NCBI RefSeq assembly: GCF_025136295.1
Contig: NZ_CP062788.1
Coordinates: forward strand, 3,861,588 to 3,925,587
Source of the DNA: Aestuariispira ectoiniformans
Lineage (GTDB): Bacteria > Pseudomonadota > Alphaproteobacteria > UBA8366 > Aestuariispiraceae
Reading direction: 5' to 3'
Length of the DNA stretch: 64,000 nt
Shown here: one piece after another, positions 48,473-56,530 of the stretch
Layout of the letters: each line of letters begins with the position of its first letter
Numbering within the stretch: position 1 is the stretch's first letter
The notes under the pieces: generated by a model
Databases searched by the model: none
Told to the model about the DNA's origin: nothing
Seen by the model: the letters and a program-made list of their open reading frames with translations, nothing else
Made by a program: the position numbers and the translations under genes

Positions 48473-48495
48473 AAAAAGTGAGCATAGCAGGCTAT

Positions 48496-48888
48496 ATGGA
48501 CAAGTTGAGTAGCACCTTTGCCGCCCTGGCCGACCCGACCCGCCGCGCCATTCTGGCCCGGCTGGCGGAAGGCAGCGCCACGGTCAACGAATTGGCCGAG
48601 CCCTTCTCCATTTCGCTGCCGGCCGTCTCCCGGCACCTGAAAGTTCTGGAGCAGGCGGAATTGATCAGCCGCGAAGCAGTGGCCCAGAAAAGGCGCTGCA
48701 CCCTACGCCCGGAAAACCTGCGCGATGCGGCCAACTGGATCGAAGATCATGCCCGGTTCTGGACCGAGAGCCTGGACCGGCTGGACAGTTATCTGGACAC
48801 AATAGACATGGACACCCAAACAGGGGAGGAAGCACAGGATGACCGACGCAGTCACGGCAACAAGACCGGAACCGCCGACGAAAAGTAA
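48496..48888 (+). CDS. ArsR-family transcriptional regulator
   Basis: 130 residues from the ATG at 48496; an upstream in-frame GTG at 48478 lacks a ribosome site. The HTH reads A-D-P-T-R-R-A-I-L-A-R-L then S-L-P-A-V-S-R-H-L-K-V-L. No metal-binding Cys set is present. Members of this type are commonly paired with SRPBCC genes, as here, and probably regulate them. Its last 50 bases overlap the start of the SRPBCC gene in another frame. Confidence 0.92.
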   Translation: MDKLSSTFAALADPTRRAILARLAEGSATVNELAEPFSISLPAVSRHLKVLEQAELISREAVAQKRRCTLRPENLRDAANWIEDHARFWTESLDRLDSYLDTIDMDTQTGEEAQDDRRSHGNKTGTADEK

Positions 48889-49321
48889 TATCGAGACGCT
48901 GACGATCGAGCGGAAATTCAAGCAACCGCCCAACGTGGTCTTCAAGGCCTGGACCGATCCGACCGCCTTGCGGCAATGGGTTGGGCCATTGCATTTCACC
49001 TGCCCAGCGGCAGAAATGGATGCACGGGTCGGCGGCAGCTATGTCTTTCCCATGATATCGGCCGACGGGAAATTTTTCACCGTCCGCGGTGTTATCAAAG
49101 ACCTTATCCCCAACGCGCTTATGCGCTTTTCCTGGGCCTGGGACCAGGAGGACGGTTCAGCCGGCAGGATGATGGAAGTGACCCTGGAATTTCGGAAGTC
49201 CGGCAGCGGCACCCTCCTCATTCTTCATCAAAGCAACTTCATCGACGAGGAGGCCCGTACCTCGCACAACCACGGCTGGCAGGGTTGCCTCGATTCCCTG
49301 GCCGCTTATCTGGAAGAATGA
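48839..49321 (+). CDS. SRPBCC (AHSA1-like) domain protein
   Basis: 160 residues forming one START-like ligand-binding domain: F-K-Q-P-P-N-V-V-F-K-A-W-T-D-P at about 28-42, G-G-S-Y-V-F-P-M in the middle and N-H-G-W-Q-G-C-L-D-S-L near the end. GGGGAGG stands about 9 bases before the ATG, so the long overlap with the ArsR gene is probably real. The ligand is unknown. Followed 3 bases later by a GST gene. Confidence 0.9.
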   Translation: MTDAVTATRPEPPTKSNIETLTIERKFKQPPNVVFKAWTDPTALRQWVGPLHFTCPAAEMDARVGGSYVFPMISADGKFFTVRGVIKDLIPNALMRFSWAWDQEDGSAGRMMEVTLEFRKSGSGTLLILHQSNFIDEEARTSHNHGWQGCLDSLAAYLEE

Positions 49322-49324
49322 TCC

Positions 49325-49966
49325 ATGCACAAACTGCAAATTCTAGGCATGCCGCAAAGCACCTTCGTTCGTACAGCCTGTATGGCCGCGATTGAAAAAG
49401 GCATTGATTATGAGTTGATCGAAACCATGCCGCAAAGCGATGCCATGAAGGCAATTCACCCCGCAGGCAAGATGCCGGTCATGAGCCATGGCGACGTGCA
49501 TCTGTTCGAAACCCTCGCGATCACCCATTATATCGACCACGCCTTTGACGGGCCTGCCCTGCACCCGGCCAACCCGCTCAAGCAGGCCAAGATGTATCAA
49601 TGGATCAGCTTCTCCAATGACCGGTTGTACCAGGTGATCGCCCGCGGGATATTGCTGCCGAGATTTTTCCCCAAAACCGAGGACGGACAGCCGGATATGG
49701 CCCTGATCAATCAGTCGGTCGAGGAGGCCCGCCCCCTGATTGCCGCCCTTGAACAGGCCTATGACGGCCATGATTATCTTTTAGGTGAGGAATGTTCGCT
49801 GGCAGATCTGTTTGTCGCCCCGATCCTCTACTACCTCTACGTCGTTCCGGAAGGAGGCGATCTGTTCGCCAACACCCCCAATATCGAGCGCGCCGCAAAC
49901 GCCATGAAAGAGCGAGAAAGCTTTATCAAATCCGCCCCGCCGCCCCTGCCTCAGGCTGCTGATTAA
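49325..49966 (+). CDS. Glutathione S-transferase family protein
   Basis: 213 residues: thioredoxin-like N-terminal domain with S-T-F-V-R-T-A near the start and G-K-M-P-V-M ... F-E-T-L-A-I-T-H-Y-I (cis-Pro and Glu-Thr glutathione contacts), then a helical C-terminal domain with C-S-L-A-D-L-F-V-A-P. Third gene of ArsR-SRPBCC-GST, a likely detoxification unit. The class cannot be assigned with confidence. Confidence 0.93.
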   Translation: MHKLQILGMPQSTFVRTACMAAIEKGIDYELIETMPQSDAMKAIHPAGKMPVMSHGDVHLFETLAITHYIDHAFDGPALHPANPLKQAKMYQWISFSNDRLYQVIARGILLPRFFPKTEDGQPDMALINQSVEEARPLIAALEQAYDGHDYLLGEECSLADLFVAPILYYLYVVPEGGDLFANTPNIERAANAMKERESFIKSAPPPLPQAAD

Positions 49967-50020: not shown

Positions 50021-50698
50021 ATGACAGATCATCACAAGCGGTTTCCCGGAGAAGACGATGACTACCGTTCCTGCCGCCTGGGCCTGCTGGAGCAGGAGAT
50101 CAAATTACGAAAGAAGATCGAAGCGGTTGCCAAGCAACGCCGTCAACTGCCCCTCGGCGGCAAAATCCCGGAGAATTATACCTTCGATGAAATTCGGGAC
50201 GGACTGACGGTCCACACCCAATTCTCCGACCTGTTTGAGGCGGACAAGGACACCCTGCTTCTATATAGCTTCATGTTCCCGCCGGGCGGCACGCCCTGCC
50301 CCGGATGCACCTCCCTCACGGACAGCTATCACGGTGACCTGGTCCATTTGCAACAGCGCGTGAATTTCGCCGCCGTCGCAAAGACCGACATTGCAACCTT
50401 CCGCGCCTGGGGCCAGGAACGCGGATGGCATAACTTGCGTATGCTCTCATCTGCCGGGAACAGCTTTAACCGCGACTATCACGCGGAAAACGAAGAGGGA
50501 TCCCAGGCCCCCCTGATGCATGTTTTCAAGCGTACTGCGAAGGGTATCCACCATTTCTACACCACGGAGTTGCTCTTCGTTCCTCCCGAACCGGGCCAGC
50601 ACCCCCGCCATGCTGACTGCATGTGGTCACTTTGGAACATGCTGGATTTGACTCCGGAGGGAAGGCCAGACTGGAACCCATCCCTCCGGTATGACTAG
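50021..50698 (+). CDS. DUF899 thioredoxin-like protein
   Basis: 225 residues of the DUF899 family, a thioredoxin-like fold of unknown activity. Seen: F-M-F-P-P-G-G-T-P-C-P-G-C-T-S-L (C-P-G-C pair), W-H-N-L-R-M-L-S-S and G-I-H-H-F-Y-T-T-E-L, all usual for the family. It lies 54 bases after the GST gene and may be co-transcribed with it. Its TAG interlocks with the stop of the convergent Rieske-fusion gene (CTAG at 50695-50698). Confidence 0.88.
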   Translation: MTDHHKRFPGEDDDYRSCRLGLLEQEIKLRKKIEAVAKQRRQLPLGGKIPENYTFDEIRDGLTVHTQFSDLFEADKDTLLLYSFMFPPGGTPCPGCTSLTDSYHGDLVHLQQRVNFAAVAKTDIATFRAWGQERGWHNLRMLSSAGNSFNRDYHAENEEGSQAPLMHVFKRTAKGIHHFYTTELLFVPPEPGQHPRHADCMWSLWNMLDLTPEGRPDWNPSLRYD

Positions 50699-52287
50699 CC
50701 CTCATTCGCAACAAAGCTCAGCGCCTGGCGAGCAGTGCGCAGCACATGTTTTCGCTTCAGCGTTGCATTGAGAAACCGGTTCCCGGCCGCCAACAGCATT
50801 TGCGCGGCCGGGCCATCGGGCGAGGCTTCATATTCCTCACGGATCGCCGCCGTCGTCTTCACCAGATGACAGGCAACAATATATTCAAACTGGGCATGAT
50901 CGAAAAAGCCGTGCTCCACCTCGGCAAAGAAGGCCCTGGGGTCGGACAGATACCAGCGATCCGCCACATAGCCCTTATCGACAAAACCCGCATTGCGGCC
51001 GATGAAACAGCCCATCTGCAACAGCCCCTGCGGCCATAATTCCGGAAAACGCGAACATTGCACATGCACCGCGTTGGCAAAGGTCAGGCCATGGGTAAAG
51101 CTGAGAAAGCTTTGATTGGCGGCCACATTGCGGTCCGTGTGAAACTGATGCGCTTCATCGAAATGCAACATATTCCAGGCGAGCGCACCAAGCGCCGCAT
51201 CAAACAGCGCCGCGGTGTTGGAGGAGGATGCCTGCATCCGTTCCAGAACCTTGGCCACCGAACGGCCGGTCAACTCATCCCAGACAACCGGCTCGTCATC
51301 CCACGTCGCCTGCCCCCAGGATTGTAGTGCCGGCGCATAGGCTCGGAATTCCGGAATCAAATCCTCCCGCCGCCCATAGATCAGTGACCGCACCAGCGCC
51401 AGCAAAAGCGGTTCTGCCACATCCGCGCCCAACCGGTCGATCAGGCCCATGGTCTTGTAGACGTATATCAGGCTGTGACCAAAATCCAGGAAGTGGTCAA
51501 GGGCCGCACGGGTCAGGGCCTCTTCAAAATCCCGGTGGGTCATACCGCAGGCCAGACCACCACGGATCATACCAATGGCTGTCTCCTCATCCTCTGCATC
51601 CACCGCCCGGACAAAGCCATCGACCGTGAAGTCCACCAACTTCACAGGATAGGGATAAATTTTTTCACGCCGCGTATCCCAGGCCATATGGGCGACCACC
51701 TCTACGACAGGGATCAGGGCCAGTGCCTCGTCGTCTGCACCATAACGGTCGCGCAGCGTCAGCCAGTCCAGTGCCGCACCATAGGCGTGGGTCGCGCCGA
51801 ATTCCATCCGGTCATGGGTCCAGTGAATGGTCCTGCGCAATGCATCCAGCGGATCACCGCCCGCCTTCACCAGGCGCGCGATTTCGCGGGCCATACGGTC
51901 GTATTCATGATCGTCGAAACAATCCAGAAGATTGTCCAGCGCCTTGCCGATCGCCTGTTCGGGCGACGGATCACTGACGTCCAAAAGCAAGTCCCCACCA
52001 TCCAGCCGGGCCGGGTAGGTGCGGACCTGATCGCCGCCGACCATGGTCTCGCCACTTTCCAGATCAAACTTCCAGTTGTGCCAGTTGCAGGTAAGGACAC
52101 AGCCTTCGGTCAACGTGCCCTCAGACAGCGGATAACCTTCGTGAGGGCATTTGTTATTACAGGCGAATATTCCCTTTTCCCCCTGAAAGACCGCGATCTG
52201 GCGTCCCCCTTCCTTCACCAGGATGCGGCCCTTTTCCGCCAGCTTTTCCGCAGCACCCTTAATTCGTAATTCCCGTTCAGCCATCAT
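50695..52287 (-). CDS. Rieske 2Fe-2S domain fused to a His-rich helical domain
   Basis: 530 residues. Residues 5-105 are a complete Rieske ferredoxin-like domain with cluster ligands C47-P-H49 and C67-x2-H70. After a short linker, residues about 112-530 are alpha-helical and unusually His-rich: H155/H158, H167, H200, H265/H271, H375/H380/H383, H399, H408, H459/H464 and H474. Parts (D-H-F-L-D-F-G-H-S, F-T-H-G-L-T-F-A-N-A-V-H) recall questin-oxidase-like (DUF4243) proteins. It could be an oxygenase with a built-in electron donor; that is inference. M2 at 52284 may be the true start. It lies 18 bases after an MFS gene, same strand. Confidence 0.75.
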   Translation of the reverse strand: MMAERELRIKGAAEKLAEKGRILVKEGGRQIAVFQGEKGIFACNNKCPHEGYPLSEGTLTEGCVLTCNWHNWKFDLESGETMVGGDQVRTYPARLDGGDLLLDVSDPSPEQAIGKALDNLLDCFDDHEYDRMAREIARLVKAGGDPLDALRRTIHWTHDRMEFGATHAYGAALDWLTLRDRYGADDEALALIPVVEVVAHMAWDTRREKIYPYPVKLVDFTVDGFVRAVDAEDEETAIGMIRGGLACGMTHRDFEEALTRAALDHFLDFGHSLIYVYKTMGLIDRLGADVAEPLLLALVRSLIYGRREDLIPEFRAYAPALQSWGQATWDDEPVVWDELTGRSVAKVLERMQASSSNTAALFDAALGALAWNMLHFDEAHQFHTDRNVAANQSFLSFTHGLTFANAVHVQCSRFPELWPQGLLQMGCFIGRNAGFVDKGYVADRWYLSDPRAFFAEVEHGFFDHAQFEYIVACHLVKTTAAIREEYEASPDGPAAQMLLAAGNRFLNATLKRKHVLRTARQALSFVANEG

Positions 52288-52305: not shown

Positions 52306-53463
52306 TTATACCAGTTTTTCAGTGGCCCTGCCTGCCCGCATCGCTGTCCAGGCCGTCGCGGGAAAAATCAGGATTGCCGCACCGGCCAGATAGAGCATCA
52401 GGCCGTCACCCTGCCACACGTCCACCATCACACCTGCCGTGGATGGCCCGACCAGCACGCCAACGTTATACATGGCGGAAAAGGCCGCACTGCCCACAGC
52501 CAGAGCATGACCCTTGAAGAAATGTCCGACCAACAACACGCCCATGCCATATAACGCACTGCCTGCCGTGCCCCAGAAAAGGAAATAGATAATCCCCGCG
52601 GGCTCCGCGGTCAGGAAGTGCTGATAGCCCAGGATCATGAGGAATTCCCCAAGCGTCAGCCCCGCCACCAGGGCCAGCCTGTTCATCCGGTCCGCCAGCC
52701 ATCCCATGGGATATTGGCTGAGCATTCCCCCAACCCCCAGCAGGCCCAGCAGCAGGAAAATGTCCTTCTCACCCACCCCCGCAGGCACAAGCGGCAGGAA
52801 GGCATGGGTCGCCTCATAGCTGGCCGACATCACCAGATTGATCACCATCGGCAGGGGCGCGAACAGCAAACAGGCGATAAGACCGCCCTTCCCTTTGCTC
52901 TTTTCAACGCTGTAACTACCGCCATCCGCCAGCATCACCGGTATCAGGCAGATCAGACAGAGGCCCGCGCCGATCAGAAAAGGCTCAATGGTCGCAGTGC
53001 CGGTCAGGGCAAGGATAAGCGGCCCAATCGCCAGGCCCGCGCTGCCCGCCGTGGCATAGACGCCAATTACCCGCCCCCGGCTATGGTCTTCGGCCAGATC
53101 ATGGATCCAGGCCTCGCTGACAACCCAGAGCGCACAGGCCGCCGCCCCGGCGAAGGCCCGCAAGACAAACCACCCCGACAGACTTTCCATCACCGTAAAC
53201 AAGGGAAACACCACACCAATTGTAACCAGAGCCGTGATCAGGATTGGTTTTGCGCCGAAACGCGAAAGCAGGGCGGGAAAGAATGGCGCGACCAGGACAC
53301 CCGCCAGTGGCTGCACCGCCGTATTCAGCCCGATTACAGTCTCCGTAATGCCCATGGCATCCAGCCGCACCGCCAAAAGCGGCAGCGACAGCGAGTAGAC
53401 CATATTCACCACGAACATCGCCGCGATCACGCAAGCCAGATTGAACCTCTTGGAATGCCCCAT
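52306..53463 (-). CDS. MFS transporter, YcaD-like
   Basis: 385 residues, twelve helices. The segment V-S-E-A-W-I-H-D-L-A-E-D-H-S-R-G-R-V-I-G-V-Y matches the YcaD-type signature and parallels the MFS gene at 36936-38099. Located between a DUF1127 gene and the Rieske fusion, all minus strand with gaps of 34 and 18 bases, it probably transports the substrate or product of the Rieske-fusion enzyme. Confidence 0.87.
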   Translation of the reverse strand: MGHSKRFNLACVIAAMFVVNMVYSLSLPLLAVRLDAMGITETVIGLNTAVQPLAGVLVAPFFPALLSRFGAKPILITALVTIGVVFPLFTVMESLSGWFVLRAFAGAAACALWVVSEAWIHDLAEDHSRGRVIGVYATAGSAGLAIGPLILALTGTATIEPFLIGAGLCLICLIPVMLADGGSYSVEKSKGKGGLIACLLFAPLPMVINLVMSASYEATHAFLPLVPAGVGEKDIFLLLGLLGVGGMLSQYPMGWLADRMNRLALVAGLTLGEFLMILGYQHFLTAEPAGIIYFLFWGTAGSALYGMGVLLVGHFFKGHALAVGSAAFSAMYNVGVLVGPSTAGVMVDVWQGDGLMLYLAGAAILIFPATAWTAMRAGRATEKLV

Positions 53464-53497: not shown

Positions 53498-53653
53498 TCA
53501 GCGGCGGCTGCGCAGGCGTTTGATATCGTCCCGCTGAATCCCCAGATCGCGCAGCACATGATTGGACAACGCATCGGGGTAAATGGTTTTTTTCCGACGC
53601 CGGAACAAATGCGCCAGCCTCAGAACTTTTGTCATTGCACGCATGTTTCTCAT
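53498..53653 (-). CDS. DUF1127-like small basic protein
   Basis: 51-residue ORF (ATG 53651-53653, TGA 53498-53500). It is very basic, and its C-terminus L-S-N-H-V-L-R-D-L-G-I-Q-R-D-D-I matches the DUF1127 pattern L-x-D-[IL]-G-[IL]-x-R-x-[DE]-I. Related small proteins in alphaproteobacteria affect RNA and phosphate or stress metabolism. It lies 34 bases before the MFS gene and may lead that operon. Confidence 0.72.
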   Translation of the reverse strand: MRNMRAMTKVLRLAHLFRRRKKTIYPDALSNHVLRDLGIQRDDIKRLRSRR

Positions 53654-53742
53654 CAGCTTCACCATTCAATTTAATAAAGTTTTTTCTTTATAAAACATAT
53701 GACCGAAGAAATTTGACTTAATCAAGAAAAATCTTTAGAAAA

Positions 53743-54405
53743 ATGTTTATGAGCAAACCACAATCCAAACCGAAGGATGTGAAGGGCCGCCGCCGCATCC
53801 AGGAAATCCTGAAAACCGAAGGACCGCAGGAAGCCGCCGTGCTGGCGGAAAAGCTGGGGGTTTCGGCCATGGCCGTGCGCCAGCATCTTTATGCGATGCA
53901 GGAAGAAAAGCTGGTCACCTTTACGGAGGAACCGCGCCCCAAGGGCCGCCCGGCCAAGCTGTGGCAACTGACGGAAGAGGCCAACCGGCTTTTCCCCGAT
54001 GCCCATGCGGACCTGACAATCAACCTGATCGAGGTGATGAAGGAAACCTTTGGAGAAGACGGTCTCAACAAGTTTCTCGATGCCCGTGCTGCCAAGCAGG
54101 TCGCAGACTATCGAACGCGAATGGAGGGTACGGACGACCTGCGCGACCGGCTGGTCAAACTGGCCCGAATTCGTGAGGACGAAGGCTATATGGCCTGTGT
54201 CACGGAAGATGACGACGGCCTGCTGTTTGTTGAAAACCACTGCCCCATCTGTGCGGCCGCCCATGCCTGCAGCGGCCTTTGCGCCATGGAACTCAAGGTC
54301 TTCCAACTGGTGATGGGCTCAGGCGTGGACGTCAGCCGCACCGACCACATCCTGGCAGGCGCGCGCCGCTGTGCCTATCGGATAACGCCAAAGGCCCGGA
54401 CATAA
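53743..54405 (+). CDS. SufR-like HTH regulator with C-terminal Cys cluster
   Basis: 220 residues. Winged HTH at about 18-75 (A-A-V-L-A-E-K-L-G-V-S-A-M-A-V-R-Q-H-L then G-R-P-A-K-L-W-Q-L). The C-terminal region has C167, C170, C176, C180 and C210 in N-H-C-P-I-C-A-A-A-H-A-C-S-G-L-C, resembling the Fe-S-binding segment of SufR. No suf operon is in the window. It is preceded by an AT-rich gap and has no strong ribosome site; M3 is an alternative start. Targets unknown. Confidence 0.82.
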   Translation: MFMSKPQSKPKDVKGRRRIQEILKTEGPQEAAVLAEKLGVSAMAVRQHLYAMQEEKLVTFTEEPRPKGRPAKLWQLTEEANRLFPDAHADLTINLIEVMKETFGEDGLNKFLDARAAKQVADYRTRMEGTDDLRDRLVKLARIREDEGYMACVTEDDDGLLFVENHCPICAAAHACSGLCAMELKVFQLVMGSGVDVSRTDHILAGARRCAYRITPKART

Positions 54406-54460: not shown

Positions 54461-55075
54461 TCAGACTTTACGCCGACGCGCAAAAACCATCCCGAACAGG
54501 CCGAGCCCCAGAAGGCCGAACATGCCCGGTGCCGGAACCGCCTTTGCACCGTTGATCACGATATTATCGAACTGATGGAAGGGACCTTCCTGAACCCAGG
54601 AAACCCGCAGAAGGTCGGAAAACACGCTGTCAAAGAAGAAGGTTTCAAAACCCAGCGTACCATCCAGGGTAAAGGTCTGACTAACTGTGCCCCCGCCGAG
54701 CAGCGTCCCGATGAAAGTCACGTTAGCACTGTTGTTTCCATTCAATTCGGATAAGTCGATGGAGGTCAGGTCAAAGGCCGAACCGTTATCGGCCACCAGC
54801 TCGATCCCACCGCCAATCGTATTGTTGAAAAGCGCCGTGGACCCGGCGTAGCGGAATTCCTTTGTACCGAATGTCGCGAAAGACTGGCTGCCCCCCAGGT
54901 TGTGCAGGGAGTATCCGTCTTCGGAATAGTTCCAGCCCGCAGAATTGACGCTGCTGTTATTCTGTTCCAGGCTCTGGAAATCAATAACAGTGGCTTCCGC
55001 CGCCATGCCGCTCGCAAACAGAACCGTTGTTGCCAGCGCCACGCCCGTGGCCAAATTTTTCATAGCTTTCAACAT
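54461..55075 (-). CDS. VPAPG-CTERM (PEP-CTERM-like) secreted protein 1
   Basis: 204 residues. Signal peptide to about residue 28 (A-A-E-A-T). A beta-rich body with N-S-A-G-W-N-Y-S-E-D-G-Y and F-H-Q-F-D-N-I-V-I-N. The last 25 residues (180-204) are a sorting tail: V-P-A-P-G, a Gly/Leu-rich helix and A-R-R-R-K-V. Such tails direct exosortase processing in Gram-negatives. AGGGG precedes the ATG at a good distance. It is the same length as, and clearly paralogous to, the protein at 55733-56347. Confidence 0.88.
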   Translation of the reverse strand: MLKAMKNLATGVALATTVLFASGMAAEATVIDFQSLEQNNSSVNSAGWNYSEDGYSLHNLGGSQSFATFGTKEFRYAGSTALFNNTIGGGIELVADNGSAFDLTSIDLSELNGNNSANVTFIGTLLGGGTVSQTFTLDGTLGFETFFFDSVFSDLLRVSWVQEGPFHQFDNIVINGAKAVPAPGMFGLLGLGLFGMVFARRRKV

Positions 55076-55732: not shown

Positions 55733-56347
55733 TCAGGCCTTGCGGCGACGCGCAAACCCAAGTCCGAACAGTCCCAGCCCCAGCAGGCCCAGTGCCCCCG
55801 GCGCCGGGACGGCTGATGCGGCATTGACCACAATATTATCGAACATGTGATAATCAGCCTGCTGCACCCAGGTAACATCCAGAAGATTGTTGAATGCGGC
55901 GGTAAATAAGAAGGTTTCAAAGCCCAACACGCCATCCAGCGAGAACGTCTGGGTAACGGTTCCTCCGCCCAGCAGATGCCCAATAAAGGTAACATCGACG
56001 TCAGTGCCGTAGCCAGCACCGAATTCTGTCAGATCAATAGAGTTCAGGGAAAATACGGCCCCACCGTCAGCCGTCAGCTTGTTAGTGCCGTTGGGAGTGT
56101 CATTAAACAGCGCCGTAGAACCATAATAGCGTGATGCGGCAGTGCCGTAGGACTTCAATCCAAATGTACTCAAACTGGCAACTGTGAAACCATCTTCGGA
56201 ATAGCTATATCCCGCATCGTGTGCATTGTTGTCGTTAACTTCCAGTCCCTGGAAATCAATCACCGTTGCCTGTGCTGACATGGCACCGCCAAAGGCAGCC
56301 GCAACAGCAAAGGCCGCACCCATGGCCCAATGTTTAAAAGAATTCAT
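55733..56347 (-). CDS. VPAPG-CTERM (PEP-CTERM-like) secreted protein 3
   Basis: 204 residues from the ATG at 56345-56347, with GGGGGGA upstream; a longer in-frame start is rejected. Signal peptide to A-Q-A-T (about 26-29). The body has Y-S-Y-S-E-D-G-F, S-T-A-L-F-N-D-T and F-D-N-I-V-V-N, all matching the paralogue at 54461-55075. The C-terminal tail V-P-A-P-G then a G/L-rich helix and A-R-R-R-K-A fill residues 180-204. Confidence 0.88.
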   Translation of the reverse strand: MNSFKHWAMGAAFAVAAAFGGAMSAQATVIDFQGLEVNDNNAHDAGYSYSEDGFTVASLSTFGLKSYGTAASRYYGSTALFNDTPNGTNKLTADGGAVFSLNSIDLTEFGAGYGTDVDVTFIGHLLGGGTVTQTFSLDGVLGFETFLFTAAFNNLLDVTWVQQADYHMFDNIVVNAASAVPAPGALGLLGLGLFGLGFARRRKA

Positions 56348-56530
56348 CTCATCCCCCCTGAATTGGTTTATTTGGAACTGGGACGGGTAGCCGCAATATT
56401 TGGGCCAAAATACTAATCGTTTATTATCAGTCACTTAATTCAGCGGTCGATCAACGTTGAAAAGAATACCGACATTAGCATTCTATCTATTATTGAAGAT
56501 TCACGAAGGCAACTGCATCCAACAAGGACG

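Follow-up and report, generated by a model that had tools for sequence, protein, structure and literature searches.

Rieske oxygenases are conceived as one architecture, in which a Rieske domain is combined with a START-type catalytic domain. Enzymes of the questin oxidase family (PF14027, DUF4243) have a different iron site: in BTG13, the iron is held by four histidines and a carboxylated lysine, K377. To our knowledge, no questin-type enzyme carries a Rieske domain. In the questin route, GedF reduces questin to the hydroquinone, which is then cleaved by the dioxygenase GedK (PMC9474520).

We analyzed a stretch of 64,000 nucleotides from Aestuariispira ectoiniformans (hereafter the window), in which one gene encodes a Rieske ferredoxin domain fused to a large helical domain. 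We lean toward the reading that this protein is a Rieske-coupled non-heme iron oxygenase with a questin-oxidase fold, processing redox-active quinoid or aromatic compounds and inducible through Fe-S sensors.

A Rieske ferredoxin domain fused to a helical domain

The fusion gene was confirmed as a real open reading frame (Table 1). A sequence-only reading of this DNA had described its product as having a complete Rieske site and lacking the usual Rieske-oxygenase catalytic domain, and both points were borne out. The site reads C47-P-H49 and C67-N-W-H70, and the closest solved sequences are the ferredoxins of biphenyl and naphthalene dioxygenases and T4moC. Pfam and NCBIfam scans detected no START-type catalytic domain with a 2-His-1-carboxylate iron (PF00848, PF19112 and the like) in the protein and no match of any kind in residues 106–530; Pfam gave the same result for each of 42 relatives. 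In the AlphaFold model, these residues are predicted to be entirely helical. The two domains account for the whole chain, which comprises a ferredoxin domain and no FAD/NAD(P)H reductase domain, so that the qualification 'self-sufficient', as used in the sequence-only reading, is unsupported. Furthermore, a search of the genome for Reductase_C, the one reductase domain sought, found no BphA4-type domain; this counts against the oxygenase reading.

Table 1. Features of the fusion gene and its upstream region, in window coordinates
Feature	Position	Strand	Evidence
Fusion gene, Rieske ferredoxin + questin-oxidase-fold helical domain (530 aa)	50695..52287	-	ORF, full-length homologs, AlphaFold pLDDT 94.8
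Rieske [2Fe-2S] ferredoxin domain, residues 11-105	51973..52257	-	Pfam PF00355 E 1.2e-14, Foldseek to Rieske ferredoxins
2Fe-2S ligands C47, H49, C67, H70	52078..52149	-	Invariant in 42 relatives; also in 48 with the distant branch added
Helical, presumed catalytic domain, residues 106-530	50698..51972	-	AlphaFold pLDDT 95.5, pTM 0.94; Foldseek 8yxs, 8z4q
H167, putative metal ligand 1 (BTG13 H55 position by spacing)	51787..51789	-	42/42; absent in distant relatives
E196 and H200, conserved helix	51688..51702	-	E196 42/42, H200 40/42
H265, extra conserved histidine	51493..51495	-	42/42, 47/48
H271, putative metal ligand 2 (BTG13 H158 position)	51475..51477	-	42/42, 48/48
H399-G-L-T402, putative metal ligand 3 + HxxT (BTG13 H296/T299)	51082..51093	-	H399, T402 48/48; motif in PaD, BTG13
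H474-x-x-K477, putative metal ligand 4 + HxxK (BTG13 H374/K377)	50857..50868	-	H474 48/48; K477 42/42 in near family, Q in distant
MFS transporter, 18 bp upstream of fusion gene	52306..53463	-	PF07690 E 1.6e-29
DUF1127-like small ORF, 55 aa, first in minus-strand run	53498..53665	-	PF06568 22.6 bits, just under 23.3 cut-off
Operator-like palindrome TAAAG-N6-CTTTA	53675..53690		≤1 mismatch in 12/15 orthologous intergenic regions
Second operator-like palindrome, one mismatch	53722..53737		
Divergent SufR-like winged-helix regulator	53743..54405	+	TIGR02702 E 2.5e-31, below equivalog cut-off; five invariant Cys

How often the fusion occurs, a question raised with the sequence-only reading, was answered by counting. 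Every one of the 13 other genomes in the family has a full-length match, as do 3 of the 25 others in the order; in a sample of about 397 other genomes from across the phylum, no more than 4 have one. When 84,980 genomes were scanned for the helical domain by itself, 38 loci were recovered, from Alpha- and Gammaproteobacteria, Burkholderiales and Planctomycetes. In the alignment, which omits gene fragments at contig ends and genes with apparent frameshifts, all 41 relatives kept have the Rieske domain with every ligand invariant. The presence of the fusion in every complete gene, although the phylum sample and the 84,980-genome scan were searched with the helical domain by itself, supports the oxygenase reading. 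At two loci (L045 and L049), the gene is split into two overlapping frames, by a frameshift or an assembly error.

More distant Rieske-fused relatives, 24–28% identical and of about 590 residues, were found on plasmids of cyanobacteria, haloarchaea, Priestia (a Bacillus relative) and Paraburkholderia, annotated merely as 'Rieske (2Fe-2S) protein' or similar. Their helical domains are homologous to those of the near family (hhalign probability 97.9, E 3.3e-13). This distant family (L059–L064) has motifs of its own, GHxxDFxNKAxE, HxxTxAxA and LRExxxFHxxQxxEA, HxxQ replacing HxxK. The fusion is a new joining of known parts, and it defines a broad, unnamed prokaryotic family.

Five histidines of the helical domain (H167, H265, H271, H399 and H474) are invariant in 42 of 42 sequences, as are T402, K477, E196, D204, R300, R307, E308, R504, R517 and Q521; H200 is kept in 40 and H464 in 39. 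There are thirty-odd invariant columns, many of them polar or charged, with the ligand-like histidines among them. When the distant branch is added, H271, H399, T402, H474, R504 and R517 are found in 48 of 48 sequences and H265 in 47; in that branch H167 and H200 are lost and K477 is replaced by Q. The 'many clustered histidines' of the sequence-only reading were thus partly noise, beneath which four to five histidines are truly invariant: H265, H271, H399 and H474 are invariant, and H464 nearly so, but H155, H158, H375, H380, H383, H408 and H459 vary among the 42 sequences, and the conserved H167 and H200 had been missed. An internal four-fold repeat of histidine-bearing helix hairpins was considered and rejected; the histidines of R2/R3 and of R3/R4 do coincide when these repeat segments are aligned, but the E-values are 0.05–0.11, no better than those of controls.

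Predicted fold and candidate-ligand register of the helical domain

From these alignments, AlphaFold2 modelled the full-length protein with high confidence (pTM 0.92). Because Foldseek with this model was dominated by Rieske hits, the helical domain was also modelled alone and compared with 350,542 PDB chains. The first hit was AflY from Aspergillus (8yxs; probability 1.00, E 3.6e-3, TM 0.52/0.50), followed at ranks 2 and 3 by the hydroquinone dioxygenase PaD (8z4q, probability 0.97; 8z4r, probability 0.90). A sharp gap separates these from rank 4 (probability 0.06). TM-scores to AflY and PaD are moderate, about 0.4–0.5 over the full length. A bacterial questin oxidase profile searched against the PDB found the same AflY and PaD chains plus BTG13 (7y3w–7y3y), and because a single profile retrieves them all, the three top hits represent one family.

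At the sequence level, no proof of this kinship was obtained by Pfam, hmmsearch or hhalign. PF14027 matched none of the 42 members, even at E 1, and had no match in the host's own genome. An hmmsearch of the PDB with the helical-domain profile revealed no sequence-level link to questin oxidases, and hhalign against them was not significant in any setting (local, global, or with PaD and BTG13 added), with probabilities below 1.5% throughout. Since profile–profile comparison was not significant, the case for kinship is made by fold and motif.

The motif was compared by the order and spacing of residues in the sequences, without alignment. The window protein reads H167 -104- H271 -128- H399xxT402 -75- H474xxK477, to be compared with H55 -103- H158 -138- H296xxT299 -78- H374xxK377 in BTG13 and H63 -103- H166 -151- H317xxT320 -77- H394xxK397 in PaD. 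When letters were permuted among the 84 conserved columns, the pattern recurred once in 200,000 trials, a figure that applies to a pattern chosen post hoc and in which H265 also fits position 2. Provided that the ligand set given above for BTG13 holds, K477 would be the counterpart of K377. Rhizobial proteins of the questin oxidase family (L065–L069) carry HDxS, the lysine of the HxxK motif being missing, and for this reason a carboxylated lysine may serve as ligand in only part of that family.

These findings indicate that the helical domain, as modelled, has the questin-oxidase-type fold and is probably a distant relative of that family, not a member of it by sequence. The Foldseek gap, the order and spacing of the candidate ligands and the permutation result support the oxygenase reading; the moderate TM of about 0.5, the Foldseek E-value of 3.6e-3, the null profile comparison and the loss of K477 in the distant branch count against it. 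The likeness to questin oxidases and DUF4243 that the sequence-only reading had drawn therefore stands for the fold, AflY and PaD being the sole confident PDB matches, and for the order and spacing shared with BTG13 and PaD, but not for sequence profiles. Its description of these relatives as Baeyer–Villiger enzymes, and its mention of a flavin site, are outdated: the PDB titles of AflY and PaD are those of non-heme iron dioxygenases, and in the questin route GedK acts after GedF (PMC9474520).

We considered the possibility that the likeness is a mere analogy between helical bundles and that the protein belongs to some unrelated kind of metal enzyme, such as a diiron oxygenase built on E196/H200/D204 and H265/H271. 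The lack of significance of the sequence profiles would be expected in this case, the E196-xxx-H200-xxx-D204 motif and H265/H271 are conserved as well, and the distant branch, which has lost H167 and K477, still has D204, H265, H271, H399 and H474 in almost every sequence. Yet, an analogy would hardly place one small family at the top three ranks with a large gap to the next hit, nor reproduce both the HxxT and HxxK motifs and their spacing, and we regard it as distinctly unlikely.

Regulators, operators and neighbors

The fusion gene is the last of a minus-strand run, after the DUF1127-like ORF and the MFS gene. The sequence-only reading had correctly placed the MFS gene 18 bases upstream, on the same strand, and had proposed that the carrier could carry the substrate or product of the fusion protein. 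The association is loose. MFS genes adjoin the fusion gene in the window, L007, L008, L028 and L061 of Priestia. In L010, L021 and L027 the adjoining genes are of glyoxalase/VOC type, and no conserved metabolic operon surrounds the fusion gene in the loci examined.

The neighbors that recur are regulators, as emerged from the tabulation that the sequence-only reading had suggested. In Alphaproteobacteria, 15 loci have a SufR-like regulator close to the fusion gene, the series extending down to relatives about 34% identical; C167, C170, C176, C180 and C210 are present in 14 of 14. TIGR02702 gave 109 bits for the window regulator and 132.8 for one relative, against an equivalog cut-off of 178.8, and by this score the window regulator is SufR-like and not SufR. 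When one mismatch is allowed, 12 of the 15 intergenic regions contain the palindrome TAAAG-N6-CTTTA, versus about 0.1 expected in mononucleotide shuffles. Both copies in the window lie between the regulator and the minus-strand run, and four sites in the 4.36-Mb genome match the palindrome exactly. The canonical cyanobacterial SufR box, CAAC-N6-GTTG, was sought and is absent, this different palindrome being found instead.

A second genomic copy of the operator (L070 2002–2017; genome 511901–511916) is identical to the window site over a run of 24 bases. About 75 bp downstream of it begins a gene for an arylamine N-acetyltransferase, a family known for handling xenobiotics. This gene is possibly a second member of the SufR-like regulon.

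In Gammaproteobacteria, the neighbor of the fusion gene is SoxR (207–214 bits; cut-off 116.9). Seven of the eight intergenic regions contain TTGACT-N19-TATA(C/G)T, oriented to read into the fusion gene, and the N19 spacer includes a palindrome. The E. coli-type soxbox CCTCAA...TTGAGG was absent when searched as an exact pattern, and a related palindrome occupies the promoter with the 19-bp spacer; the gammaproteobacterial relatives thus combine the adjacent SoxR and the spacer palindrome looked for in a SoxR regulon. In the eighth region (L037 1874–2200), the soxR–fusion promoter is split by a MITE-like insert with inverted ends, its -35 and -10 halves lying on opposite sides. In the tree, a single branch separates the SufR-like from the SoxR neighbor type.

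The SoxR and SufR-like neighbors, the conserved operators and the operator copy near the arylamine N-acetyltransferase gene all support the oxygenase reading. That the gene is paired divergently with Fe-S sensors in two lineages, and lacks a conserved metabolic operon, would also fit a protein that has the questin fold without catalysis and acts as a sensor of redox state or of iron or oxygen, or in Fe-S stress; its linkage to regulators would then reflect its own Fe-S cluster. We hold this to be very unlikely: the thirty-odd invariant columns of the helical domain look catalytic, and the transporter and glyoxalase-type neighbors fit small-molecule chemistry.

Other features flank the locus. 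An apparent operon at 48478–49966 of the window encodes an ArsR-type regulator, an AHSA1-like protein and a glutathione S-transferase; it is followed by a gene for a DUF899 protein, which is convergent with the fusion gene and overlaps it by 4 bases. Two paralogous secreted proteins (54461–55075 and 55733–56434) end in a VPAPG...GLLGLGLFG...RRRK tail resembling PEP-CTERM/VPLPA sorting signals.

Proposed function and comparison with known systems

In the mechanism we propose, a separate NAD(P)H-dependent reductase would pass electrons to the N-terminal Rieske ferredoxin domain, which would deliver them to a mononuclear non-heme iron in the C-terminal domain of BTG13/AflY/PaD fold. The iron ligands would probably be H271, H399, H474 and H167, with K477, perhaps carboxylated, nearby. 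The compound oxygenated at this site would be a redox-active aromatic, quinoid or of another kind, and the reaction would belong to a response that is induced under SufR-like or SoxR Fe-S sensors and is sometimes accompanied by an exporter. SoxR regulons of Pseudomonas and Streptomyces contain transporters and oxygenases (monooxygenases) or oxidoreductases for redox-active antibiotics (PMC4146615). Taken with the GedF/GedK route and the predicted fold, this makes an inducible Rieske-coupled iron oxygenase for quinoid compounds the simplest reading. Two points count against it: a Rieske domain is not known from questin-type enzymes, and GedK depends on a separate quinone reductase for reducing power.

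The protein could instead be a questin-type dioxygenase that needs no electrons at each turnover, its Rieske domain serving to re-reduce Fe(III) or to reduce the quinone to the hydroquinone in place of GedF. There is a precedent in XylT, a ferredoxin that reactivates the ring-cleavage dioxygenase XylE. Furthermore, the fold relatives are dioxygenases acting on hydroquinones, and GedK acts once GedF has reduced the quinone (PMC9474520). The invariable fusion suggests that electrons matter at every turnover, though it does not decide the step, and we judge this alternative unlikely but worth serious consideration.

In its widest form, the proposal is that of an undescribed class of Rieske-dependent oxygenases in Bacteria and Archaea, in which the ferredoxin is permanently fused to a questin-oxidase-type (four-His/Lys) iron fold instead of a START domain and which, in Proteobacteria, serves as a SoxR- or SufR-like-controlled defense against redox-cycling quinones. 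We advance it tentatively, rating it a little short of even. If it is true, a second, unrelated iron-oxygenase fold is wired to a Rieske domain and the module has been recruited more than once; the small questin-oxidase fold, so far characterized in fungi, would widen to a large prokaryotic family annotated as 'Rieske protein' and could represent a new way of resisting natural-product quinones. The SoxR and SufR-like linkage offers a physiological test, the response to redox-cycling quinones or phenazines.

Among known systems, the questin oxidase family (BTG13, 7y3w; AflY, 8yxs; PaD, 8z4q; GedK) has the same overall helical fold by Foldseek with AflY and PaD, and four histidines in the same order and at similar spacing, with HxxT and HxxK in common. 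It differs in that identity is about 10–14%, that PF14027 does not detect the window protein and that the latter has five or more conserved histidines. The plasmid-borne 'Rieske (2Fe-2S) proteins' share the Rieske plus helical architecture, but do not keep H167, H200 and K477 and have different neighbors. Rieske non-heme iron (ring-hydroxylating) oxygenases likewise unite a Rieske 2Fe-2S cluster and a mononuclear iron site, here presumed, in one chain; in contrast to them, the window protein has no Ring_hydroxyl_A/START-type domain, its presumed catalytic part is all helical and its Rieske sequence is nearest to free ferredoxins. With those ferredoxins, from multicomponent dioxygenases (BphF/BphA3, NdoA) and T4moC, it shares the same domain by sequence and fold, but they are separate proteins, whereas the Rieske domain of the window protein is fused to its presumed oxygenase.
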